57,279 bases of DNA from Candidatus Methylomirabilota bacterium (lineage in GTDB: Bacteria > Methylomirabilota > Methylomirabilia > Methylomirabilales > Methylomirabilaceae). The notes beneath the pieces were generated by a model. It was not told the origin of the DNA. It searched no databases and saw only the letters and a list, made by a program, of their open reading frames with translations. A program made the position numbers and the translations under genes. Of this stretch, positions 6,673-20,798 are shown piece by piece. The DNA lies in NCBI GenBank assembly GCA_028870115.1, contig JAGWQH010000048.1:1-57279 (forward strand), read 5' to 3'. Numbering within the stretch: position 1 is the first letter of the stretch; the number at the start of each line of letters is the position of its first letter.

Positions 6673-6946
6673 TGCAGTGCGTCCCTCCGTCGGTTAGCTG
6701 ATATACGTCAATAATCTCGCCTTCATCATAGGCGAACCCGCCCCATGCGACAAGCGATATTTCGCGGTTGAAAATCTTGACAAGCCATTGGAAACGCCGG
6801 AAAATCGCCGCAACTGCTTAAGGCTACTGCGAGCGAGATGCAAGGCTGGTGCTGGTATGGTTGAGCAAAGCGAAGGCGTCGCAAGTGAACCAAATGGTAG
6901 GCTGGACCGGAACGGGTGCTTCCCGAGAAAAGTGCCATGAGGAATC
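6673..6946. other. Intergenic stretch with a possible gene remnant
   Basis: No complete gene is evident. On the minus strand an open stretch without a start codon (about 6663-6816) encodes FNREISLVAWGGFAYDEGEI and ends at a TGA that overlaps the pcrA start. It could be the tail of a lost gene, but I do not recognise it. Confidence 0.4.
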
Positions 6947-6976
6947 TTGACGCTACCCGGTAGATGACGCTAGAAT
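6947..6976 (+). promoter_or_regulatory. Sigma-70 promoter of the orphan antitoxin
   Basis: TTGACG (6947-6952), an 18-nt spacer and TAGAAT (6971-6976). The same arrangement with the same spacer recurs at 10648-10677. Confidence 0.7.
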
Positions 6977-6993
6977 TGCATCATAATGATGCA
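6977..6993. promoter_or_regulatory. Palindromic operator candidate
   Basis: TGCATCA-taa-TGATGCA starts right after the -10 box. It is a perfect 7-bp inverted repeat around three bases, placed where an autoregulating ribbon-helix-helix antitoxin would bind. Confidence 0.6.
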
Positions 6994-7020
6994 TCATTTG
7001 CAACGGTACAGGAGACGCCA

Positions 7021-7281
7021 ATGAAGGCAATCACATTGCGCAACCTTCCGCCTGAGCTCACTCGGATCATCCGCCAGAAGGCCGACGAGCAGCACGCGAG
7101 TATCAACAAGGTGGTTATCGGACTACTGGAGAAAAGCGTGGGAGTGCGAGGCAAGAAGAGCGAAATGGTCCTGTACCACGATCTGGATACGCTGGTCGGA
7201 TCATGGACGCGGGAAGAGACAGCAGCTTTCAATAAAGCGCTGGCCAAGCAGCGTGCCATCGATCCGGATTTGTGGCGATGA
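7021..7281 (+). CDS. Orphan FitA-like ribbon-helix-helix antitoxin
   Basis: 86 aa. I start it at ATG 7021 (AGGAGA just upstream); the longer frame from 6964 overlaps the promoter. The N-terminus AITLRNLPPELTRIIRQKAD is the DNA-binding strand and first helix of FitA/VapB-type antitoxins. The C-terminal part (YHDLDTLVGSWTREET...AIDPDLWR) is the usual toxin-wrapping tail. The partner PIN toxin normally follows directly, but here the next gene is on the other strand, so the antitoxin is orphaned. It may act on other toxins or as an immunity relic. A 5' fragment of a paralogue lies at 10720. Confidence 0.8.
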   Translation: MKAITLRNLPPELTRIIRQKADEQHASINKVVIGLLEKSVGVRGKKSEMVLYHDLDTLVGSWTREETAAFNKALAKQRAIDPDLWR

Positions 7282-7312
7282 CGCGGGCGACGGGGGTCAC
7301 GTCCACGTAACG

Positions 7313-10300
7313 TTAGCGTGATTGGATCAGGTACTCAAGGAGTACCAGTCCCCCAGATCCCCCGAGGAAGAACAGGAGAGTCCTGACGACGGGCTGCTCG
7401 CTGATGGGGCAGAAGGCTCCGTCGCGGTTCGCCTCGACCTCTTTAATGAGCAACCGGATCCGCTCGATTTGATCTGCCTCACTTCCCAGCAACTGAAACA
7501 CCTTCCGGTTCAATGTATCAAGTACCCGCCGCCGACTCTTTTCGGCCCTATTCCGGAGTGCGATAGCGCAGCCTATAACCCAGGCAGCATTGAGCCCAAA
7601 TACCAAGAGAAGAAACCACGGCTGACTCCATCGATCAAGCAGGGGGCTGCGGGCCACGATCATGAGCAACAGCACGATGAACGGATAATAGACAAGACGC
7701 CCGACCACCCGGGTCCGTCCGGCAATCAGTTGGATGTCCAGCCACTCGCGTAGATCATCCGGGTGCGCGCTCATACCATGTTGATCGGCGAACTTCCTCA
7801 GAGTCTGCGGAGGCCACTCGCATGGCTTTCCGACCAACCGCTCAATGAACCCGCGACACAGACGTGTCGCATCCACCACAAAGAATATCAACACAATCAA
7901 GCTGGATACGGCAAGTCGTACAATCACTCGGTCGCTCCAAAAACTGACCTCGCCACGACCCGGCGGCACGGGAAAGTCACTTGCAAAGATTAGAAAAATT
8001 GTCACAATCAAGCACCAATACAGCACAGAGGAAACCAGGACACGTTTGGGCCAACCTCTACTATCCTCTCGGTACCATGCCCACAACTGCTGCACGCTGA
8101 GCTCTTCCGACCGCTGGTCGTCGACAGCTTTTCGGCTCACTGGAGGCTCGCTCTTTATATCTAGGTCGTACCGTTCAGAGAGTTGCTTATTACTATTCCG
8201 AAGCGAGCAGATGCCTCGCACTATAAACCCCACAGCCAGGAACAGGGCATACAGGCGGATGGCCTCAGACGGCCAAAGGCTGATCCCCTCCCACAGATCC
8301 AATGGCTCGCCTTTTTGGGCATCCTGCCAGGTCACTAGCGCGCTGATCAAGGCGATGGGGGTTACAACGACGATACCTGACCGAATGAGGCGACTTTTGC
8401 CCAGCCGGCTGACCATCCAAAGCAACAGGAGGGCCAGCACGAAGATGGAACCGACAATCTGAATGATGAATCTCACACTTTTCTGCCCTGTGAGTACTGC
8501 CGGATGGACAAGATTAGGATCCTTGTGATCCTGGGGATCCTGATCTACGCTCAGGTCGAACGGCTGCCGTCTGCCGATCTCAAAGAGCCTTGGTGTTAAG
8601 CGGTCAGCCTGTGCCTGTGAAGGTTTCTCAAGCGCTACCTGGACGGCGTAGAACACTGCAGTCTGATAACTGTCTCGAAACGGCGGTATTCCACGCTGGT
8701 GGCCTGGAGCGAGTTCCAGCCCGAAACCCGAGCCCACGATCAAATTCCTGGTCCATTTGGATTGGGCTTGATGCGTATAGCGGGCATCGAGGTCGGTAGT
8801 GAAAAACAGCGCCGATGGAAAGCGGTCGTGCAGCGCCTGCAGGATGAGAAGCTTATCGTACACGTCGCTCCCCAGTACTCCGATGGCCTGCACATTCCCG
8901 TTCATGTCTTCCATCTCTCGCTCAATACGTGAGCCAAGACGGCGGAGGTAGTCGAATTGGCTGTTACCAATAGCCCTTTCCAGCGTCTGTGAATCCCTCT
9001 TGACCTCGCCCGCCTCCTTACTTGTTTTGGCCGCCTCTTTCTCCTGGAGCGGCGTCTCGCCGTCAAGTCCACGCATATAGCTGTACCGACAGATACCGTA
9101 CTTGTAGCAGGCGTCTTCCCAGGTTATGTCATTCTGGCCGGTGAAGGCTCTGAAAAACGTCGCAGGCAGGCTGCGGCCATAAAATGTGTCCCATTCCGCG
9201 ATCAGGGCGATATAATTCTTGGGTTTCTCCTCTGGACCCTTTGGTTTTTCCCACTTAACGCGGCGTCGGGCGAGCTCCTCTTTCAGAGAGCATGCGAGAT
9301 CGTTATCGGTTGGGATGGTGCGTTGGAACGTTATTTTGAGCTTTTTAAATGCCTCGGCAATGGTTTCTCCCGCAATATCCTTGACCTTGTCCTGCTTGCC
9401 TCTTACCTCATCGTCTACCGAAAGACAGCGTAAGAACTGTTTCGGAGTGTCGTTCTCTGGAATCAGCAGCGTGTTGGGGACAGTGGCATTGGGGGAGTAA
9501 ATCTCGCTTGACTTTAACGACGTGAGCGCTGGGGGTACCTTCTTAAACTTAAACGCCTCTTGTACCATCGCATGGAGCGTGGTGGAGCCGGCAGGACCGA
9601 TGATCTTAATGCTGAGTGTGTCCTTTGAACCTTTGTCAATGGCCTGCTTAATCAAGTGCTCCAATCGCAACAATGGCTGATCGTCGAACAGGTTGTTATC
9701 AAGCCACAACAGTAATACTGCCCCGTGCTGTTCAGAAACGCTACCTGGAGATCTTAACTTCTTATCCTTAGGCAGCAGCCACTCATAGGGTATGACCAGA
9801 CACCCTTTCGGGGAACGAGACCTAGGCGAGGATGGATTAAGATGACAGCGGTGAGCGTTGTCAGCTTGTTTATTCGAATTCAAGGGCCAGGGATCCCAAG
9901 GGATTTGCACATAGTCGATGTGCTCACCGTCGACCGGCTCATAGTCGGATACGGCTAGAGCGGACAGCACGGCATAGCGTTTGCGACGACGGTCTTCAAT
10001 CTGCTCCGCATACGGGCCGCCAAAGACCATGACCGGCATGATCGTGACTTTGCCATGCTCTTTAGCCTGTTTCTTGATCTGCTTCTTCAAATGATCCGCG
10101 AAGTGATCTGGAGCGTACTGAAACATCCCCATCGGCCCTTTTTGGTCAGGTTGTTGCCCGAACTTCTTGGAAACTGCACTGAAGGGGTCCTCCCACAGCC
10201 GTGCGGGAACGAATTGGGGGCCGAGGGTAGACGACGTTTCGATCACGCCCTCGCGGGGTCGGAAACTTTCAAATGGTTTTCCATAAAAATAGACCCCGCC

Positions 10301-10369
10301 TACCGTCGCTGCCAGCAGGACCACACCTATCAGGGGGAGGTTTGGTTTCTGTTCCTTCGGGTCCGGCAT
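7313..10369 (-). CDS. 1018-aa membrane protein with periplasmic-binding-like domain and 8 C-terminal TM helices
   Basis: I do not recognise a characterised family. One membrane segment lies at residues about 12-30, then a soluble region to about 640, then about eight hydrophobic helices (around 645-1015) separated by charged loops. The soluble part reads like a type-1 periplasmic-binding (ABC/receptor) fold: alternating strands such as VTIMPVMVFGGPYAE, LLLWLDNN, IKIIGPAGSTTLHAM, YIALIAEWDTFYG and AIGVLGSDVYDKLLILQAL, ending with FFTTDLDARYTH...PPFRDSYQTAVFYAVQVAL. The topology suggests a sensor or receptor whose ligand domain faces the periplasm and whose helices span the inner membrane. No kinase, cyclase or GGDEF domain follows. 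The gene is alone on its strand, convergent with the antitoxin and bracketed by two copies of the antitoxin promoter. Confidence 0.7.
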   Translation of the reverse strand: MPDPKEQKPNLPLIGVVLLAATVGGVYFYGKPFESFRPREGVIETSSTLGPQFVPARLWEDPFSAVSKKFGQQPDQKGPMGMFQYAPDHFADHLKKQIKKQAKEHGKVTIMPVMVFGGPYAEQIEDRRRKRYAVLSALAVSDYEPVDGEHIDYVQIPWDPWPLNSNKQADNAHRCHLNPSSPRSRSPKGCLVIPYEWLLPKDKKLRSPGSVSEQHGAVLLLWLDNNLFDDQPLLRLEHLIKQAIDKGSKDTLSIKIIGPAGSTTLHAMVQEAFKFKKVPPALTSLKSSEIYSPNATVPNTLLIPENDTPKQFLRCLSVDDEVRGKQDKVKDIAGETIAEAFKKLKITFQRTIPTDNDLACSLKEELARRRVKWEKPKGPEEKPKNYIALIAEWDTFYGRSLPATFFRAFTGQNDITWEDACYKYGICRYSYMRGLDGETPLQEKEAAKTSKEAGEVKRDSQTLERAIGNSQFDYLRRLGSRIEREMEDMNGNVQAIGVLGSDVYDKLLILQALHDRFPSALFFTTDLDARYTHQAQSKWTRNLIVGSGFGLELAPGHQRGIPPFRDSYQTAVFYAVQVALEKPSQAQADRLTPRLFEIGRRQPFDLSVDQDPQDHKDPNLVHPAVLTGQKSVRFIIQIVGSIFVLALLLLWMVSRLGKSRLIRSGIVVVTPIALISALVTWQDAQKGEPLDLWEGISLWPSEAIRLYALFLAVGFIVRGICSLRNSNKQLSERYDLDIKSEPPVSRKAVDDQRSEELSVQQLWAWYREDSRGWPKRVLVSSVLYWCLIVTIFLIFASDFPVPPGRGEVSFWSDRVIVRLAVSSLIVLIFFVVDATRLCRGFIERLVGKPCEWPPQTLRKFADQHGMSAHPDDLREWLDIQLIAGRTRVVGRLVYYPFIVLLLMIVARSPLLDRWSQPWFLLLVFGLNAAWVIGCAIALRNRAEKSRRRVLDTLNRKVFQLLGSEADQIERIRLLIKEVEANRDGAFCPISEQPVVRTLLFFLGGSGGLVLLEYLIQSR

Positions 10370-10647
10370 GATACCTCGCTTATGACTTTGAGGTGTCTTC
10401 TCACCAGGAAATCCGGGGCAGTCACCCGCTCAGGGCTCCTGGGATTGCCGTGCCAGGGTGGAACTCCATCCACTACTCAGGTGCCCGTTACCTGGTGGTC
10501 TCTTCTTAATGGGCGGGGAATTTTCAGTCGCCACACCAGAGGAATTTATCATCGGTAATGACAGGTGTCCAATCGAAATCTACCATCAGCAGGATGAGTG
10601 CAACGATTATGATCGCACACGGTCAAAGCCTGCCGGAGATAGATACC
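10370..10647. other. Intergenic region, nothing definite
   Basis: This is the upstream region of the 1018-aa gene. Short open frames on the plus strand have no recognisable product, and I see no convincing promoter or terminator in it. Confidence 0.5.
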
Positions 10648-10677
10648 TTGACGTCATCCGACGGATGACGCTAGAGT
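10648..10677 (+). promoter_or_regulatory. Second copy of the antitoxin promoter
   Basis: TTGACG (10648-10653), an 18-nt spacer and TAGAGT (10672-10677), flanked by gatgacgctaga as at 6964. The palindromic operator next to it is degraded in this copy. Confidence 0.6.
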
Positions 10678-10719
10678 GTGCACAACAATAATGCAGAATC
10701 GGCAACGCTGCGGGGGTCG

Positions 10720-10854
10720 ATGAAGGCAATCAGATTACGAAACCTTTCGTCTGGACTCAGCCGAATCGTCCGTCGGTGGCCTCAGGCTGGTGCTGTACAG
10801 ATCAGCGAAACCACAGTGAGGCATCTGGGCGGCTGCAAAGGAACGCGTCAGTGA
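10720..10854 (+). pseudogene. 5' fragment of the FitA-like antitoxin
   Basis: The first 17 codons (MKAIRLRNLSSGLSRIVR) are clearly homologous to the antitoxin at 7021 (MKAITLRNLPPELTRIIR), also at the nucleotide level and including the promoter. Homology then ends abruptly; the frame runs on as unrelated sequence to a TGA at 10852-10854. That stop overlaps the GTG start of the next gene. It is best read as a truncated duplicate. Confidence 0.75.
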
Positions 10855-11462
10855 ATCCCGAATCTTCGAACTCCGCGCAGAAACACCGGCGCCGAATGAT
10901 GGTGGTCCACATTGCTGTGGTCGTTTCCCTGATTGCGGCAGGGGCTGCACTTGCGACCGTACCGGCGGTCAGGGATCATCTGTGTTATGAGCATCACATG
11001 AACACGTTCTGCTCGATAGGCCAAATCGGCGAATCCGAAGTGAGGGTATTTGCATGGTATCCGGGGGCGAAGCCGTTTGATCGGAACACGTGGACCCCTC
11101 GCACAATTCGGGGCGAGATTCCACCTTACGAAAACCGCTCATACGGCAGCAGCTTTCCGCGCGGAAAACAACTCTGGCTGTACTGGGAAGCGCGACTGAA
11201 GTCTCGTGTACCTCCAGGCCGCTCAATCAGGTTCGTAGTCCATGGGACGACTTATGATGCAGGTGGTAATTCTGTCGCGGGTGGTGTCGTTGAGGCCACG
11301 TGGGGTGCTGATGACCCGGCAGCCCTTGTTATTGGCCCTGTCGACACCGTTCCAATTGGAACCGGCGGTCAATTCCCGCCGGGGCACTATGAGATCGTTC
11401 TGAAGGCATATGGCAATCAACTGGCTGAGTCAGAGGTTCGCGGCGGCTTCGATATTTACTGA
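10851..11462 (+). CDS. Membrane-anchored or secreted protein of unknown function
   Basis: 203 aa from GTG 10851, chosen for AAAGGAA 7 nt upstream; ATG 10896 would begin just before the membrane segment. After a basic stretch (KHRRRMM) comes one hydrophobic helix (VVHIAVVVSLIAAGAALATV). A beta-rich exported region follows with SIGQIGESEVRVFAWYPGAK and WLYWEARLKSRVPPGRSIRF. Two cysteines (LCYEHH, TFCSIG) close to the membrane could pair. The late strands (PPGHYEIVLKAYGNQLAESE) suggest an immunoglobulin-like or jelly-roll fold. I do not recognise a family. It is convergent with the next gene. Confidence 0.6.
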   Translation: MNPESSNSAQKHRRRMMVVHIAVVVSLIAAGAALATVPAVRDHLCYEHHMNTFCSIGQIGESEVRVFAWYPGAKPFDRNTWTPRTIRGEIPPYENRSYGSSFPRGKQLWLYWEARLKSRVPPGRSIRFVVHGTTYDAGGNSVAGGVVEATWGADDPAALVIGPVDTVPIGTGGQFPPGHYEIVLKAYGNQLAESEVRGGFDIY

Positions 11463-13714: not shown

Positions 13715-14152
13715 TCAGCCCTCGCAAGAGTCGTCAGATTCGCCATCCCCGAAGGCTTCCTTGGTGGTGTGGCGACGTAGCGGGGCGATGTCGAAATAGC
13801 GCTGCACGGTGTCCTCCATGATACCGGTGCGGAGGGTGTCGTCGCGACTGAACAGACACTCACCGCGCAAGACGTACAGGCGAAAGGAAATCGGCGCCGT
13901 ATTAAGGGTGCGGACATCGACCGGCAGTTTGACCTTGGCGCTCAGATGGGCCGACAGATTCGCAGCCAGGGCGTTGTTAAAGTGGCTGCTGGAGAGGTAG
14001 ACGCCGATATCTACGTTGGAAAATGCTTCAGATTTGAGGAATGAGCCGTAGACGTAGGCGAAGAGCACGTCGGGCTCATGTAAAAGCCCGGCGGCGATCT
14101 GATCCCGAATCGCGCCGCGTTCAGCAAGGCTCAGTCGGTAGAGCTGTTTCAT
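13715..14152 (-). CDS. MNT-type nucleotidyltransferase (MntA-like)
   Basis: 145 aa. The N-terminus MKQLYRLSLAERGAIRDQ is followed by the nucleotidyltransferase motif YVYGSFLKSEAFSNVDIGVYL and a later Asp in LPVDVRTLN. In the usual DxD pair the second residue is Gly here (DIG), a variant whose activity is uncertain. MntA proteins AMPylate and silence HEPN toxins (HepT); no HEPN gene is adjacent. The last ~12 residues after KEAFG (DGESDDSCEG) extend beyond the paralogous copies, so the 3' end may be altered. Fragments of close relatives lie at 14178, 15961 and 41355. Confidence 0.75.
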   Translation of the reverse strand: MKQLYRLSLAERGAIRDQIAAGLLHEPDVLFAYVYGSFLKSEAFSNVDIGVYLSSSHFNNALAANLSAHLSAKVKLPVDVRTLNTAPISFRLYVLRGECLFSRDDTLRTGIMEDTVQRYFDIAPLRRHTTKEAFGDGESDDSCEG

Positions 14153-14177
14153 GCGCGGATAAGGTCAGGGTTCAGAG

Positions 14178-14450
14178 TCATGTGCCGAAGGCCTCTCTGG
14201 TGGCGTGGCGAAGCACCGGGGCGATGTCGAAATAGCGCCGCATCGTATTCTCCATGATATCGGTGCGGAGGTCGTCGTCGCGACTGAACAGACACTCGCC
14301 GCGCAAAACGTGGAAGCGAAAGGCGACCGGCATCGCGTTGAGGATGCGGACATCGATCGGGAATTTGACCGTGCGGCTCAGGTAGGCCGACAGATGAGCA
14401 GTAATGCCGCCGTTGGTCTGGTCGGTGGACAGGTAGACGCCAATATCGAC
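14178..14450 (-). pseudogene. MNT nucleotidyltransferase, 5'-truncated copy
   Basis: The minus-strand frame from 14450 reads VDIGVYLSTDQTNGGITAHL, then ILNAMPVAFRFHVLRGECLF and ...MRRYFDIAPVLRHATREAFG. It is colinear with the intact gene at 13715 but lacks the GS motif and everything before it. The break at 14450 joins it directly to an Uma2-like 5' fragment. Confidence 0.8.
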
Positions 14451-14526: not shown

Positions 14527-15704
14527 CGTCTCTTCATCGGCTTGCTCCTGTCCGGAAACAAGGCATCCGCGTTGCCCTGAGCCAGGGCCGCCAGCGGCAC
14601 CACATCGACCCGTTCGGCCAGCGCATACCGTCTTGCGCCAGGATATAGAACAGTGAGGTGGTCGAGCTGCAGATCGTGAAGCGCGATACGCATGGACGGC
14701 GTCAGGGTGGGTGCGTCGGCCCGCTTCACCTCCACGCCAAGTCGCCGCCTGTCCTTGAACAGGAGAAGATCCAGTTCGGCGCCGGTATGTGTCGCCCAGA
14801 AGTACGCCTCGTCCGGCTGCACGGCCTTGAGAGTTTCTTCGATGGCATACCCTTCCCACGATGCGCCGCACTTGGGGTGCGTAAATAGGTCCCTTTCCGT
14901 CCTGATGCCGAGAAGCTGGTGCAGCAAGCCGCTGTCCCGCAGATAGACCTTCGGCGCCTTGACCTGGCGCTTCTTGAGGTTTGCATGCCAGGGGTGCAGT
15001 TGCCTCACCATGAACAACCCCGTGAGCAGATCGAGATAGCGTCTGACGGTCGGTTCGCTTACCCCAAGCGATCTGGCCGGCTCGGCCGCATTCCAGCGCT
15101 GACCGTGGTAATGCGCGAGCATGGTCCAACACCGCCGTAACGCGGGCGCGGGGATGGTCACGCCAAGTTGCGGGAGATCCCGCTCAAGAAACGTCTGGAT
15201 GAATTGACGTCGCCACGCCAGGCTGTCCGCGTGCGAACGGGCGAGATACGAGCGCGGAAAGCCGCCCCGCTGCCAGTGACGTGTCAGCGCGTTGACCCCG
15301 ACCTCGGCGAGACTGAAGCCTGAAAGCGGGACCGTCTCGATCCTTCCCGCGAGCGATTCGGAAGATTGACGAAGCAGCACCGGTGAGGCGCTGCCGAGAA
15401 TAAGAAATCTGGCGGGCAGCGGCCTCCGGTCGGCCAGCACCCGCAAGACCGGAAAGAGATCCGGTCGACGCTGCACCTCGTCAATTACCACCACCCCGCG
15501 CAGATCGGCCAGCGCTGTGATCGGCTCAGCCAGACGCGCAAGGCTTGCCGGGTCTTCGAGGTCGAAATAGTTGAGCGAATCCGAGGGAACGATCTGCCGG
15601 GCCAGCGTGGTCTTCCCGCACTGGCGCGGCCCGATGAGCGTCACCACACGGCTGCGCGACAGGGCGTGCCGGATCTGCGAGAGGATGTGAAACCGTTGGA
15701 CCAT
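14523..15704 (-). CDS. DUF4143 AAA ATPase
   Basis: 393 aa. Walker A is VTLIGPRQCGKTTLARQI (residues about 21-38) and Walker B is GVVVIDEVQRRPDL. A sensor-type ILGSASPVLL and arginine-rich GRIETVPLSGFSLAE follow. The C-terminal DUF4143 part ends with a nuclease-like fold (YAIEETLKAV...GAELDLLLFKDRRRLGVEVKR), where E-D-ExK residues resemble PD-(D/E)XK enzymes. These proteins are common in accessory regions and often sit with toxin-antitoxin genes; their cellular role is not established. It appears complete. Confidence 0.85.
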   Translation of the reverse strand: MVQRFHILSQIRHALSRSRVVTLIGPRQCGKTTLARQIVPSDSLNYFDLEDPASLARLAEPITALADLRGVVVIDEVQRRPDLFPVLRVLADRRPLPARFLILGSASPVLLRQSSESLAGRIETVPLSGFSLAEVGVNALTRHWQRGGFPRSYLARSHADSLAWRRQFIQTFLERDLPQLGVTIPAPALRRCWTMLAHYHGQRWNAAEPARSLGVSEPTVRRYLDLLTGLFMVRQLHPWHANLKKRQVKAPKVYLRDSGLLHQLLGIRTERDLFTHPKCGASWEGYAIEETLKAVQPDEAYFWATHTGAELDLLLFKDRRRLGVEVKRADAPTLTPSMRIALHDLQLDHLTVLYPGARRYALAERVDVVPLAALAQGNADALFPDRSKPMKRR

Positions 15705-15718
15705 GGAAGGACTATACT

Positions 15719-16036
15719 ATGAAAATCAAATACCTGGTATTCCTTTTTCATGGTACACCGGACGACTTACAAATGGAGATGAAGTTCGGGTCAAAGTTCG
15801 GCATAGTGTCTGCGAGCCAAACTGTGACCAGTCGCTACGATGTGCCCGAGCACCTTCGAACCCCCGAGGAAATGGCGGCTTACCTTTGGAGCCATCTGTC
15901 GTCAGCAGAGGACCGAACGAAACCGTTCGTGCGAAGGTCGAAGCCTTGCCAGAGGAGATGCGAACATGGCGCCGCGTTCCTCCTGGCTCAGTCGGTAGAG
16001 TCGTTCTTCCATCAGGCTTGTCTCAAGCTCTCGTAG
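15719..16036 (+). CDS. Doubtful ORF, divergent from the DUF4143 gene
   Basis: 105 aa from ATG 15719, with a GGAAGGA site 8 nt upstream. The first ~65 residues (MKIKYLVFLFHGTPDDLQ..., LRTPEEMAAYLWSHLSS) have protein-like composition. The last third is antisense to an MNT fragment, so the natural 3' end has probably been replaced. Only 14 bp separate it from the divergent ATPase start, which leaves no room for an ordinary promoter. I do not recognise it, and it may be a chance or broken frame. Confidence 0.3.
   Translation: MKIKYLVFLFHGTPDDLQMEMKFGSKFGIVSASQTVTSRYDVPEHLRTPEEMAAYLWSHLSSAEDRTKPFVRRSKPCQRRCEHGAAFLLAQSVESFFHQACLKLS
15961..16012 (-). pseudogene. MNT nucleotidyltransferase N-terminal fragment
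   Basis: ATG 16012 encodes MEERLYRLSQEERGAMF, matching MKQLYRLSLAERGAI of the gene at 13715, with two identical DNA blocks (16 and 11 bp). Homology ends after about 17 codons. It starts 10 nt after the stop of the 88-aa gene, as an operon partner would. Confidence 0.6.
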
Positions 16037-16289
16037 GTTGAATATCGACGCTTGTCCGATAGCCAAGGCGGCCCAGCCTTGCGACGGCATCCTCCCACGT
16101 GAGACCAAATGCCGTCACGTCTGCAAGGCCAAGTCGAGCAACTGCGTCGCGAATGATCTCGATGTCTGCCGCGTCGAACTCGCCCTCATTAAAGGCATCA
16201 TGGGCCCAGGACACGACCTCGGCCAGGGTCCGACGACCCTGAAGATAGGCTGCAAGCTGCTCCGCTACTGTTTCCCAAGTAATCAGCAT
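16023..16289 (-). CDS. 88-aa acidic protein of an unnamed orphan family
   Basis: The protein (VAEQLAAYLQGRRTLAEVVS...FNEGEFDAADIEIIRDAVAR...FGLTWEDAVARLGRLGYR) is acidic and mostly helical. I know no function for it. Two things point to a toxin-antitoxin-like setting. A fragment of an MNT nucleotidyltransferase starts 10 nt downstream, and a broken paralogue lies in the toxin-antitoxin debris at 12424. It could be a partner or regulator of the MNT proteins. Confidence 0.65.
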   Translation of the reverse strand: MLITWETVAEQLAAYLQGRRTLAEVVSWAHDAFNEGEFDAADIEIIRDAVARLGLADVTAFGLTWEDAVARLGRLGYRTSVDIQPTRA

Positions 16290-16363
16290 CTTCTTATTCC
16301 TCTAGTCGTTCATGGCCTGCATCTACAGGGTACTTGATATGACGCTCGACGGCAACTCCCCGT

Positions 16364-18412
16364 TCATTCGAGAATCGCCTTCATAAAGGCGTCTGCCTGG
16401 TCCGCGTAGAATACGATATTCACCTTCGTCGCCATTTCGTCCGGCAAGTCCAGCAGTTGCCGTCGCGCCGAAATCGGCATGAGAAGTTGGGCTGCGCCCT
16501 TCTCGACCGCTAACTCGGCGACGGCCACCGGATTGGGAATCATCTCTACCGAGCCGCCGAGGTTGAGCGAGCCGACCACGATCAGGCCGCCCTTTGTGCT
16601 TCGCTCCATCAGGCTTCCGCATAGCGCCACCAGTACCGGCAGCCCAAGGCCGTGGCCGGATCGATCCGTATCCATTGCTCGCAACTGCACTGAAAACTCG
16701 TGACTGCGAGGGTCGCGCTCCCCAACCAGTTCCTTGGCCTGCGCATACAGGTTCTGCTCGCCGTAGCGGACGCTCTCGCGGAACGGCGGCGGGACCGGGG
16801 CATTGAGAATCTTCACGCCGCTTCCCGGCCCGCTTGTCGCTTCAATGCGGTAGAGCGAAGCAGGCGCGTCTTGGCCGCCAGGGCTGATAGCCCAGACTTG
16901 CCCGGGCGGTAGCGGGTCGGTTTCGATAGCTTCGTCGCTGTGCAACTCCGGCGTCGAAACGAATTGCTCCACACCATTCACGCCCATGAAATAGCTGAAA
17001 TGGGTGTTGCGGAACTCCGTCTTGAGGCATCGCTTCTGCTGCTCTTTCACCCGCCGGCGCGCCTCCAAAGCAATCCGCACAACGGAGTTAAGCTCTTCAT
17101 CGGGGATTGGCATCTCCGGGTCGGGAAAGAGCAGTTTGAGCAGTCCGCTGACGGTCTTGTTCACTGCTTCGATATCCCGACCGCTCAACGCCCCGCCCCA
17201 GTGCGCTCGGCCTTGCAGCTTTGATATCCGCGTCCCTTCGCGCAACTTCGCCCAGCACTCGGACAGGTAATCGGTCACCAGGCCGAAGTGGTCTGTCAGG
17301 TGGTCATCCGCCTTGAGCTTTGGGAAGTCCCAGCCGGGCGCGTAGGCGTGGATCCGGTCCATGAACGCCGTGTCGTTGCGCATCTCCGGCGGCAACGGGC
17401 TGAGCAAATGGCCGATTCGCTGTTGCTGCGCCACGTCCACGTCGAAGTTACCGACCATCACGATGCCACCCGACGCCCGGATGCTTTCCTTGCCGCGCGA
17501 GAACTCGCCCGCGGCCATGTAGCCTTTGAGGATGTTCACGCCATCCTTCTGGTCGAACGAGATGCCCGACACCTCATCGAAGCACACTACGTCATAGAGA
17601 CATACCAACCCCCGCTGCCCGCTGGACATATTCACGAACATCTTCGCGACCGTTGCCTTCCCGCCCGATATCAGGTGGGAGTATGGCGAAATCTGCTGGT
17701 ATAGATGGCTCTTGCCCGTACCGCGGGGGCCAAGTTCGACGAGGTTGTAGTTCCGCTCGACGAATGGAACCATCCGCAGGAGCACCACCATTTTAGCCCG
17801 ATCCGACATCGCCGCCGGCTCCAGACCGACCGAGCGAAGGAGGAAGTCCTTCCACTCCGACGTGGTGAACCGCTCGCGGCCTTTCCCGAGCGTTACCAGT
17901 ACGTCCGACTTTGAGAGCTGGATCGCCCGCAGGCTCTCGATGGCGAATGGCCGGCCGTGCCGTTCCTCCGCAATAGCCGCATCGTACGTCAGCGTTACTT
18001 CGGCGTAGAAACCGTCGCTGAGCATTCGCTCGTGTTCGTGGACGAGGGTATCGGCGATCCGCACATCCTTCAATCCAAGGCTCGAAAGCTCCACAAGGAA
18101 CGAGTCGGTCTTGGCGTCCAAACGGGCCTTCACCAGGTCGATGAGCTTTACCGCGCCTTTCTTGCGTGCGTTGGCTTTGAAAAGCTCCTGGTCACTGGTG
18201 CGGACGGTCCGGTCCTGTAGCTGCCGCTCCACGATCTTCAAACCTTCCTCGATCTCTTGCTCGTTCACCGTCGCGCAGTATCGCCCGAGTAGAAACTCTA
18301 CGACGTAGGTCGGCACAGGATACTGCCGGCTGTACCGCCGTACGAGGTCTTTGCGGACGAGGTAGCCGTCGAAGACCGATGCCGCGAGCTGGTCCAGATG
18401 GTCGAGTTCCAT
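16364..18412 (-). CDS. brxL: BREX Lon-like ATPase BrxL
   Basis: 682 aa from ATG 18412, which lies 1 nt after the pglZ stop. BrxL is the Lon-related AAA+ protein of type 1 BREX phage defence; relatives form ring-shaped DNA-binding motors. Visible parts: an N-terminal region (MELDHLDQLAASVFDGYLVR), Walker A in GPRGTGKSHLYQ (about residue 228), CFDEVSGISFDQKDG (Walker B), GNFDVDVAQQQRIGHLLSPLP, and a C-terminal Lon-protease-like domain (DRSGHGLGLPVLVAL...GSLNLGGSVEMI). Length and motifs look complete. It is the last gene of the BREX operon. Confidence 0.95.
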   Translation of the reverse strand: MELDHLDQLAASVFDGYLVRKDLVRRYSRQYPVPTYVVEFLLGRYCATVNEQEIEEGLKIVERQLQDRTVRTSDQELFKANARKKGAVKLIDLVKARLDAKTDSFLVELSSLGLKDVRIADTLVHEHERMLSDGFYAEVTLTYDAAIAEERHGRPFAIESLRAIQLSKSDVLVTLGKGRERFTTSEWKDFLLRSVGLEPAAMSDRAKMVVLLRMVPFVERNYNLVELGPRGTGKSHLYQQISPYSHLISGGKATVAKMFVNMSSGQRGLVCLYDVVCFDEVSGISFDQKDGVNILKGYMAAGEFSRGKESIRASGGIVMVGNFDVDVAQQQRIGHLLSPLPPEMRNDTAFMDRIHAYAPGWDFPKLKADDHLTDHFGLVTDYLSECWAKLREGTRISKLQGRAHWGGALSGRDIEAVNKTVSGLLKLLFPDPEMPIPDEELNSVVRIALEARRRVKEQQKRCLKTEFRNTHFSYFMGVNGVEQFVSTPELHSDEAIETDPLPPGQVWAISPGGQDAPASLYRIEATSGPGSGVKILNAPVPPPFRESVRYGEQNLYAQAKELVGERDPRSHEFSVQLRAMDTDRSGHGLGLPVLVALCGSLMERSTKGGLIVVGSLNLGGSVEMIPNPVAVAELAVEKGAAQLLMPISARRQLLDLPDEMATKVNIVFYADQADAFMKAILE

Positions 18413-18413
18413 G

Positions 18414-20798
18414 TTAGTCGTCACCTCCAACGGTAGTGGCTTCCTTGCAGAGCACGCGCCCGGACGCATCGACAATCACGAGGCTGGCCACTGTCCCTTT
18501 AAGGGAATCGTCGTCGACCAACAGCGCAACCTTTCCGTCGGCGCCCAGGGTCTTGGGTTTCTTGGGTTGCATAACGCTTGAGTCCGGGACGTTGGGCTTT
18601 GTCCGAAGGTCGGCCAGTAGTCCTTCGACTGCCGGCTGGACGCTCACCCGGCACCGCAGGCCTACCCACCGGACCTCACTGATCGTGACCACCACATCGG
18701 CTGGGGCATCCGTCGAAGCAAACGTCAGGACCGGAACCAGGCACTCCTGCAAGCTCGCGCCGCCGTGGGCGTACTCCTGTCCGGCGACGAAGCAATACAC
18801 ACCCGGCGCATAGGCAAATCGCTCGTGTGGGTTCCACGACCAGCCTGCGATGGGTACCTCCACATGAGAGCTGTCTTTGATCGATGCACACCGGGACCAT
18901 CGGCTCTCCGCCAGGTACTTTGGCAGTTGCACCTTCGGCATCCCGCCGGGCACCAGCAGCCAGCCGTGGTCGGTTACGACGCGCACTCGCTTCCAGCCCG
19001 CCTCCAGCAGCCCCTGGACGCGCTCCAGCAAGAGTTCCAACTGGTCTTCGATCTGCGCCGTCATTTTCCCCTGGAGGTTGTGCCCGAGCTTGTCGAACTC
19101 GCCATACTCCACCCAACCGCGAGCATTAGTGGCCCGCGGGTCACCCGACTCTCCCGGCCCGACCATCTGAAATCCCTCGTCGGAAAGCAGTCGGCGGAAG
19201 CGGTCGATGGTCAGCCGGCCGCCGCCATCGGCTATCTCCGGGGAGAAATCGGCCTCTAAACGCCCCCCGTAAAGCTTGCCGGAAACCGGCGACGCCGCCG
19301 GCTTGGCCGTTGCCGTCACCGTGGGCAGCGCGGCCCAACGCCACCCGGCGGACACCTCTAACCGCCGCTCTCCGGCCATTGCCGTGAGCCGCTGGCCGAT
19401 ATCAAACCGCAATCCATCGGCGAACAGGATGCATTCGCCAGTGTCGGCTGCGACACGCTCCCGCTGCGCCACTGCGGGCAGGGCCTTCGACGCCAGGCAT
19501 TGTTGGAAATGCCTCGCGGTATCTTCCAGCCACGGCAGGTACACGCATCGCACCGCTTGCTGGACGGCCGCAGTGTCTTCCGCAGTCTTCACGCAGGCCA
19601 GCGTCCGCATCGCGCTGTCGTCGGCCAGATACCCACCCTCAGCATAGAGCGTGGCCATTGCGTCGGCATTATCGCCGCCGAGCGCCATCGTCGTCCGCTT
19701 GGCAAGCATCGCCAGGTACTCCAAGGCGTTGGCCAGTGGGCACATGCCTAGCCGCGCCCAGACCGATTTGCGTCGTGGCCCGTGTTCGGTCTCCAACTGC
19801 TGCAGGCGCTGCCGCGCTTCGGTCGGCTTCATCGAACCAACGTTCATCAACTCCACCAGAAGCGCATTCTCCATCGACTCGTTTTCATCCGGCCAGGGGT
19901 CCTTTTCGAAGATCAGCGTTCCCCTCGGCTTGGCCCGCCGCAGAAGGTTCGATATACCTGGGTACAGTGCCGGCGACTCTGCGAACCGCTCCCACACACC
20001 ACACCAGGCCTCCTGGCGCTGTCCGAGCTTCTCGCCGCCGATAATCTCGCCGTCGGTCTCCGGATCAAAGCCGTAGTCCTGCCGGCAACGGCTGCGAAAC
20101 GCCGACCACTTACCTCTATCCCACCGCCCGCGGGTACCGTCCAGATCGCCCAGCCACAGCAGCAGATCGCGTGGCGTATCACCGATCATCAGCCGGTCGA
20201 AGTCCTCGGCCTCCAGCCGCTTGCCCTCCAACCGTGTCACCGGCGTCACCGCCAGTGCCGACAGTGCCCCCTGCATCGCCTGAAGGGTAAGCTTGTCTTC
20301 GGCCACGTCCAGGCCCAGCCCGCCGTCGTCGCTCACCAGGAACGCGCGAATGGTCCAGTCTTTCCCGTTCTTCTGGGTCCAGACCGTCCCTCGGTACTGA
20401 AGTTCGACCAGCGGCTTGAGCTTATCGGGGCATTCCTCTGCCGCCCGGAGCATCTGCCGGATCACGCCCGGCATGTAGATCACGGGCACGGTGTCTGCCG
20501 GCCAGGCAAGGTCAGGGAACTTCTCCGCCCGCACCGCCGGCTCGATGACGCATCGCAGCCAGATTGCGGGTCCCGTCCGCGTCTTGGCATCATAGTCTCC
20601 AAGTGTCAGCAGTGCGGGCATCAGCTCGCGCAGTTGCTCGACCACCGGCCGCCACTGGCCATCGGCGTCGGTCCACAATACCGTCACAGGCGCAACCACG
20701 TCGCCGGGGTTGTATCGCGCGACCTGCGCCAGTGAGGCTCGCACTGCCTCAAGCAGCGTGGCGGAAGGCGGACGGCGGAAGGATGAAGGCGGAGTCAT
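18414..20798 (-). CDS. pglZ: BREX phosphatase-like protein PglZ
   Basis: 794 aa from ATG 20798, overlapping the preceding stop as ATGA. PglZ belongs to the alkaline-phosphatase superfamily and is the hallmark of BREX. The metal-site blocks can be seen in the second half: ILFADGLRFDIGQRL, GGRLTIDRF..., and VVTDHGWLLVPGG. The long N-terminal half (residues 1-450) is typical of the variant that travels with brxL. There is no frameshift or internal stop. Confidence 0.93.
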   Translation of the reverse strand: MTPPSSFRRPPSATLLEAVRASLAQVARYNPGDVVAPVTVLWTDADGQWRPVVEQLRELMPALLTLGDYDAKTRTGPAIWLRCVIEPAVRAEKFPDLAWPADTVPVIYMPGVIRQMLRAAEECPDKLKPLVELQYRGTVWTQKNGKDWTIRAFLVSDDGGLGLDVAEDKLTLQAMQGALSALAVTPVTRLEGKRLEAEDFDRLMIGDTPRDLLLWLGDLDGTRGRWDRGKWSAFRSRCRQDYGFDPETDGEIIGGEKLGQRQEAWCGVWERFAESPALYPGISNLLRRAKPRGTLIFEKDPWPDENESMENALLVELMNVGSMKPTEARQRLQQLETEHGPRRKSVWARLGMCPLANALEYLAMLAKRTTMALGGDNADAMATLYAEGGYLADDSAMRTLACVKTAEDTAAVQQAVRCVYLPWLEDTARHFQQCLASKALPAVAQRERVAADTGECILFADGLRFDIGQRLTAMAGERRLEVSAGWRWAALPTVTATAKPAASPVSGKLYGGRLEADFSPEIADGGGRLTIDRFRRLLSDEGFQMVGPGESGDPRATNARGWVEYGEFDKLGHNLQGKMTAQIEDQLELLLERVQGLLEAGWKRVRVVTDHGWLLVPGGMPKVQLPKYLAESRWSRCASIKDSSHVEVPIAGWSWNPHERFAYAPGVYCFVAGQEYAHGGASLQECLVPVLTFASTDAPADVVVTISEVRWVGLRCRVSVQPAVEGLLADLRTKPNVPDSSVMQPKKPKTLGADGKVALLVDDDSLKGTVASLVIVDASGRVLCKEATTVGGDD

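Follow-up and report, generated by a model that had tools for sequence, protein, structure and literature searches.

The minus-strand gene at positions 7313 to 10369 of the window, i.e., the whole 57,279-nt stretch of DNA analyzed here, encodes a 1018-aa membrane protein that, by sequence comparison, is a member of a previously unnamed family (PBP1-8TM). Members are mostly longer than 1000 aa and are found in at least three phyla. The most economical reading of these proteins is as membrane receptors that are gated by a ligand and act through separate output proteins. It comes close to an even call, falling just short of it, that they form an undescribed family of inner-membrane flytrap receptors that sense an outside ligand and govern lytic effectors. 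The reading frame, the family, the topology, the conservation pattern and the insertion described below are results of computation. The parts of the gene are as follows.

7313 to 10369, minus strand: PBP1-8TM membrane protein gene, 1018 aa (stop-free frame; end-to-end homologues)
10283 to 10339, minus strand: signal anchor, N-in, residues 11-29 (hydropathy and positive-inside rule; 11 of 11 aligned members)
8570 to 10072, minus strand: type-1 binding-protein-like periplasmic domain, residues ~100-600 (hhalign; Foldseek)
7325 to 8467, minus strand: eight-helix membrane block, residues 635-1015 (eight hydrophobic segments, as in most members)

The frame of 1018 codons reported in an earlier note, which named no strand, is indeed open, and it lies on the minus strand. 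Because the translated aa sequence aligns end to end with homologues of 1049 and 1107 aa, at about 29% BLAST identity, 7313-10369 is coding. Searches of the window protein against Pfam, NCBIfam, PADLOC and PDB sequences found no match above chance. No chain of the PDB was matched by a profile of 11 members, and the Pfam matches of these members were isolated, each in a single member. No PADLOC defense-system model matches the window protein or its homologue at locus L091, and among the neighboring genes tested the sole PADLOC match is a weak and partial one, BovA, to the CHAT part of a lipase fusion at locus L027. The literature on PBP receptors with CHAT domains or lipases contained no description of the family. 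The earlier remark that no described system has this form thus agrees with the absence of a named family in the database searches.

Hydropathy displays nine segments, one N-terminal (11-29) and eight C-terminal (635-1015), and this layout is common to most of the 11 members examined, so that the eight C-terminal helices first counted in the window protein hold for the family also. The numbers of K+R per loop, in order along the chain, are 2, 85 (over 605 aa), 3, 1, 11, 2, 9, 2, 13 and 1. Since these charges alternate according to the positive-inside rule, the ~600-aa domain is placed in the periplasm, and the N-terminus, like the larger bundle loops, on the inner side. The soluble domain had been termed exported; it is outside the inner membrane, but it should be considered anchored rather than exported, because there is no obvious cleavage site and conserved residues are found beyond the N-terminal segment. 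By Pfam scan and loop length there is no cytoplasmic output domain (kinase, cyclase, phosphodiesterase) in the window protein, the cytoplasmic loops of which span 7-58 aa, and the earlier assertion that an output enzyme is missing therefore stands.

Homology of the soluble domain to known binding proteins was assayed with hhalign against 30 Peripla_BP_6 proteins, these being Leu/Ile/Val-type binding proteins from the class of the window genome. With lineage-specific stretches dropped, which was our choice and raises the score, the probability is 83% (P 9e-6); with these stretches kept it is 39% (P 3e-4). A reversed-profile control is negative (P 0.5). The soluble part is colinear with the Leu/Ile/Val-type proteins. 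Pfam PBP1 models show no match by hmmscan, either to the window protein at E<=1 or to the 11 members at E<=0.1. Two AF2 models, each built from 3 sequences only, are poor (pLDDT 44 and 46). With the model of the soluble part (pLDDT 46), the best Foldseek matches are the GluK2/GluK3 ATD, GanP, XylFII and GluN1, all of the PBP1 fold, with a best E of 2e-3 and low TM-scores; the fold search with the full-length model gave mostly noise except for mGlu and glutamate-receptor entries. The hhalign score with its negative control and the PBP1 structures that top the search with a low-confidence model both point to the PBP1-like domain that the earlier note had proposed. Fold and topology are supported, although for the flytrap fold the support does not amount to proof. 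Some relatives carry additional helical, coiled-coil-like insertions, which are ~300 aa long and situated between the binding-domain halves in the Verrucomicrobia genes at L023, L025 and L026, and near the N-terminus in the gene at L041.

Important is the distribution of conservation in the membrane part. The periplasmic loops of the bundle have mean conservation values of 2.13, 1.73 and 2.45, vs 0.30, 1.19, 1.31 and 1.54 for the variable cytoplasmic loops. Conserved residues of the periplasmic loops are E688, G695, S697, W699 and P700 in the first, P803, R805 and G806 in the second, and R907 and D912 in the third. TM6 and the C-terminal tail are conserved as well, and the TM cores are without a charged residue that is conserved in the family alignment. 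We read this pattern as a probable conserved contact between flytrap and bundle, together with a variable inner face.

Homologues are intact and mostly full-length, at about 980-1370 aa and 25-36% identity. The first scan of genome contigs used an alignment with one artificial probe row, not a natural sequence, that steered the choice of pattern. Two Verrucomicrobia contigs were found in this way, and both relatives held up in tblastn and in a subsequent full alignment; one of the contigs encodes the 1049-aa homologue, which covers the whole length. Carriers were then counted with profiles built from real members, and are 7 of 388 genomes in Verrucomicrobiota, 5 of 398 in Pseudomonadota and 12 of 250 in one pseudomonadotal order (that around genome G586). 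More than one family copy is present in each of genomes G095, G957, G1046 and G905. In the class of the window genome the gene is found in one of 95 genomes, with no second copy, and the 14 congeners searched have no homologue. No relative was detected in viral contigs, by a single-sequence scan or with the 11-member profile, or in plasmids and phages by tblastn with the window protein. The window branch is unplaced in the family tree. This sporadic distribution, with lineages mixed, is as expected of a gene that may be mobile and accessory. On plasmid pMSC49b of Methylosinus sp. C49 (L009:12001-14176), an N-terminal fragment of a family gene is followed by transposase-like sequence.

A survey of gene neighborhoods, proposed in the earlier note as a check, shows hydrolases close by in about a third of ~27 loci, the remainder being situated among ordinary genes. 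Those with a hydrolase neighbor are listed, with strands and distances relative to the family gene.

L024 and L025, same strand: LCAT-like lipase, with a lipoprotein gene between
L027:5274-8477, same strand: LCAT-CHAT fusion, joining an LCAT-like hydrolase to a CHAT protease domain, 66 bp downstream
L094, same strand: patatin, 40 bp upstream
L091, same strand: patatin, 151 bp upstream, with a papain-like protease
L096: patatin-like protein, by motif only, without a Pfam match
L095, same strand: Amidase_2, 84 bp upstream
L092: Amidase_2, 2.8 kb away
L041, same strand: PG_binding/GH19 protein 23 bp upstream, PhoD 115 bp downstream, and a Tle1-like lipase further up
L098, opposite strand: DUF900 hydrolase

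The count has no matched background, and L024 and L025, as well as L092 and L095, are close relatives; hence the hydrolase neighbors are a lead, albeit a strong one, and not a statistic. Locus L027 also has, at 14713-18483, a methionine synthase open reading frame whose activation domain is split in two by an in-frame Y1 (IS200-like) transposase domain.

A second association is with extracellular contractile injection systems (eCIS). In the order around G586, the eCIS marker Pvc16_N is present in 6 of 12 carriers vs 26 of 238 non-carriers (Fisher P 0.0015, uncorrected for phylogeny or genome size). Physical linkage is found in two relatives only: a Pvc16_N gene is ~7 kb from the receptor gene at L091, and the gene order at L094 is DUF6519, patatin, receptor. 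DUF6519 is an eCIS tail-fiber anchor domain (PMC12923769).

These associations can also be accommodated by a flytrap-gated pore. Ligand would open the bundle and let co-encoded enzymes without signal peptides reach the periplasm, as holins do for phage endolysins, or the bundle would dock a contractile injection system at the membrane in the manner of CisA (PMC12237407), a precedent that speaks for this account, as do the eCIS enrichment and linkage among carriers. Simple hydropathy displays no apparent signal peptide in the PG_binding/GH19 and Tle1 proteins of L041 or in the patatins of L091 and L094, the true start of the L095 amidase being uncertain. However the LCAT, LCAT-CHAT and patatin enzymes might need no release, since they could work from the cytoplasm; most loci lack eCIS neighbors, Pvc16_N is missing from the window genome, and CisA has one TM segment where the family has nine. 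A gated pore or docking site is unlikely.

A self-contained solute importer, in which the fused binding domain would pass its ligand to an eight-helix permease, should also be considered. PBP1 domains are the usual feeders of ABC permeases, large membrane blocks are common in transporters, and the many members that stand alone resemble a possible housekeeping transporter. But no member matches a Pfam transporter family, and the window protein matches none in Pfam or NCBIfam; the fusion contains no ATPase or energizing subunit and no ATPase gene is adjacent in the window; the TM cores are devoid of the conserved charge that a coupled transporter might need; and presence in a single genome of the class is sporadic for such a role. 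The combination of conserved periplasmic loops, variable cytoplasmic loops and TM cores without conserved charge favors a receptor over a transporter, short of proof, and we regard an importer as quite unlikely.

The close and often co-directional linkage with antibacterial-type enzymes, and the large periplasmic domain, would also suit an immunity or guard protein that shields the cell from the adjoining hydrolases in the periplasm. An immunity protein normally matches a single effector and is typically far smaller than 1000 aa, whereas here a single conserved family of about that size is paired with unrelated enzyme folds, and an adjoining enzyme is lacking for more than half of the copies. 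Such a role is improbable.

The window copy itself is situated in a disrupted toxin-antitoxin locus.

7021 to 7281, plus strand: ribbon-helix-helix antitoxin (FitA-like), convergent with the receptor gene (FitA-like_RHH E 1.3e-4, under the curated cut-off)
7278 to 7310, plus strand: PIN toxin remnant, 10 codons and then a stop, at the left insertion edge (matches the first PIN codons of four congeners)
10647 to 10772, plus strand: second, degenerate antitoxin promoter with the first 18 codons, near the right insertion edge (repeats D2 and D4)
10854 to 11462, plus strand: 202-aa exported protein, a native flanking gene outside the insert (congener DNA match)

In four congeners uvrD is followed by the ribbon-helix-helix antitoxin, and the antitoxin by a PIN toxin gene (135-136 aa) that overlaps it; in three of the four a ~203-aa exported protein comes after the toxin. 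The antitoxin start at 7021 was set by comparison with these congeners, in which the antitoxin overlaps the intact toxin gene. The DNA of 10854-11462 is 75-83% identical to sequence beside the locus in three of the four congeners examined. In the window, an insert of ~3.4 kb contains the receptor gene and the second antitoxin start, after which synteny resumes; its G+C is 54% vs 60% for the window, and tblastn did not reveal further toxin sequence in the window. The two copies of the antitoxin promoter noted earlier are at 6946-7073 and 10647-10772, and align in two ungapped blocks, about 79% identical, with a spacing of about 3700; a separate comparison gave a 73% match for the second copy. 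Position within the toxin-antitoxin locus and native flanks together indicate a true chromosomal insertion and an orphan receptor gene. The earlier note had also placed the gene alone in an accessory zone, and in this it was right: the genes around it are native to the genus, no partner lies next to it, and the insertion has replaced a PIN toxin that is intact in the four congeners checked. As a candidate partner, the gene at 10854-11462 was discarded, since it belongs to the genus and occurs there in genomes that lack the receptor. Synteny of the two flanks with congeners led to the rejection of a binning error. The stretch 6964-7310 holds an orphan antitoxin next to a PIN toxin cut to 10 codons by an insertion, the pair being kept in the four congeners. 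Elsewhere in the window, at 13749-14450, are two 266-nt direct repeats, 79% identical and 436 nt apart. That the gene is a non-functional, recently acquired passenger in the window genome, whatever the role of the family elsewhere, would fit the orphan copy, the broken toxin gene, the lower G+C and the absence from all 14 congeners searched, but the 1018 codons, the start and the N-terminal anchor are intact and the family motifs persist up to the final residues, which leaves it very improbable.

In the receptor model that we prefer, a short N-terminal anchor would hold a periplasmic flytrap of the type-1 binding-protein fold, which would close on a small ligand. Closure would be passed via the conserved periplasmic loops to the eight-helix bundle, the variable cytoplasmic face of which may act on a partner encoded by another gene. 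For many relatives this is likely to be a neighboring hydrolase that attacks lipids, peptidoglycan or proteins, and the usual function may be to release or activate a lytic effector in response to a stimulus. Ligand sensing, signaling and the link to effectors are what we infer, with lytic or degradative enzymes as the visible partners in relatives. The window copy would be an orphan gained via insertion into the toxin-antitoxin locus. It should be noted that more than half of the loci, that of the window included, have no adjoining hydrolase, and several are among housekeeping genes, which counts against a receptor-effector pairing. Possible, though doubtful, is the more general proposal of a bacterial class of flytrap-plus-helix-bundle receptors, similar in build to class C GPCRs with an unrelated membrane part, that respond to an external ligand by triggering lipases, amidases or contractile injection systems encoded by other genes. 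If the protein is a receptor, bacterial signaling gains a design in which flytrap and bundle form one chain and an output enzyme is missing, and its targets, as predicted from the neighboring genes, would be lipases, amidases or contractile injection systems. The locus in the window also illustrates gene movement, a cargo of one gene having taken the place of the toxin in a toxin-antitoxin locus.

As a kind, membrane receptors that include a binding-protein domain are already known. With the Leu/Ile/Val-type binding proteins (Peripla_BP_6, PF13458) the family shares lobe and motif order over ~225 aligned profile columns (GP..S, SP.AT, D..A..L, D..YGR), but it is permanently anchored, has long insertions and eight fused TM helices, and is below Pfam detection. 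The bacterial 7TMR-DISM and 7TMR-HD receptors also have an extracytoplasmic sensor followed by a helix bundle; theirs is of seven helices with cytoplasmic output domains, and it is in the eight-helix block and the missing output domain that PBP1-8TM differs from known bacterial receptors. Class C GPCRs (mGluR, CaSR, GABA-B) are similar in that an outer PBP1 flytrap is followed by a multi-helix block in one chain without an enzymatic domain. However the PBP1-8TM proteins are bacterial, have an N-terminal anchor and nine TM segments, eight C-terminal and one N-terminal, instead of seven, and match no 7TM family in Pfam, so that the likeness to a 7TM receptor seen in the earlier note holds as an analogy only. 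CisA of Streptomyces is a membrane protein with an extracytoplasmic domain that resembles solute-binding domains, and is needed for cell death driven by a contractile injection system (PMC12237407). Like the PBP1-8TM proteins it is N-in with a solute-binding-like outer domain, and the family is enriched in eCIS genomes of one order and eCIS-linked in two loci. CisA has one TM segment and a C-terminal domain of ~160 aa, as opposed to nine TM segments in proteins mostly of more than 1000 aa; by analogy, it offers a functional precedent for the family rather than an established relative.
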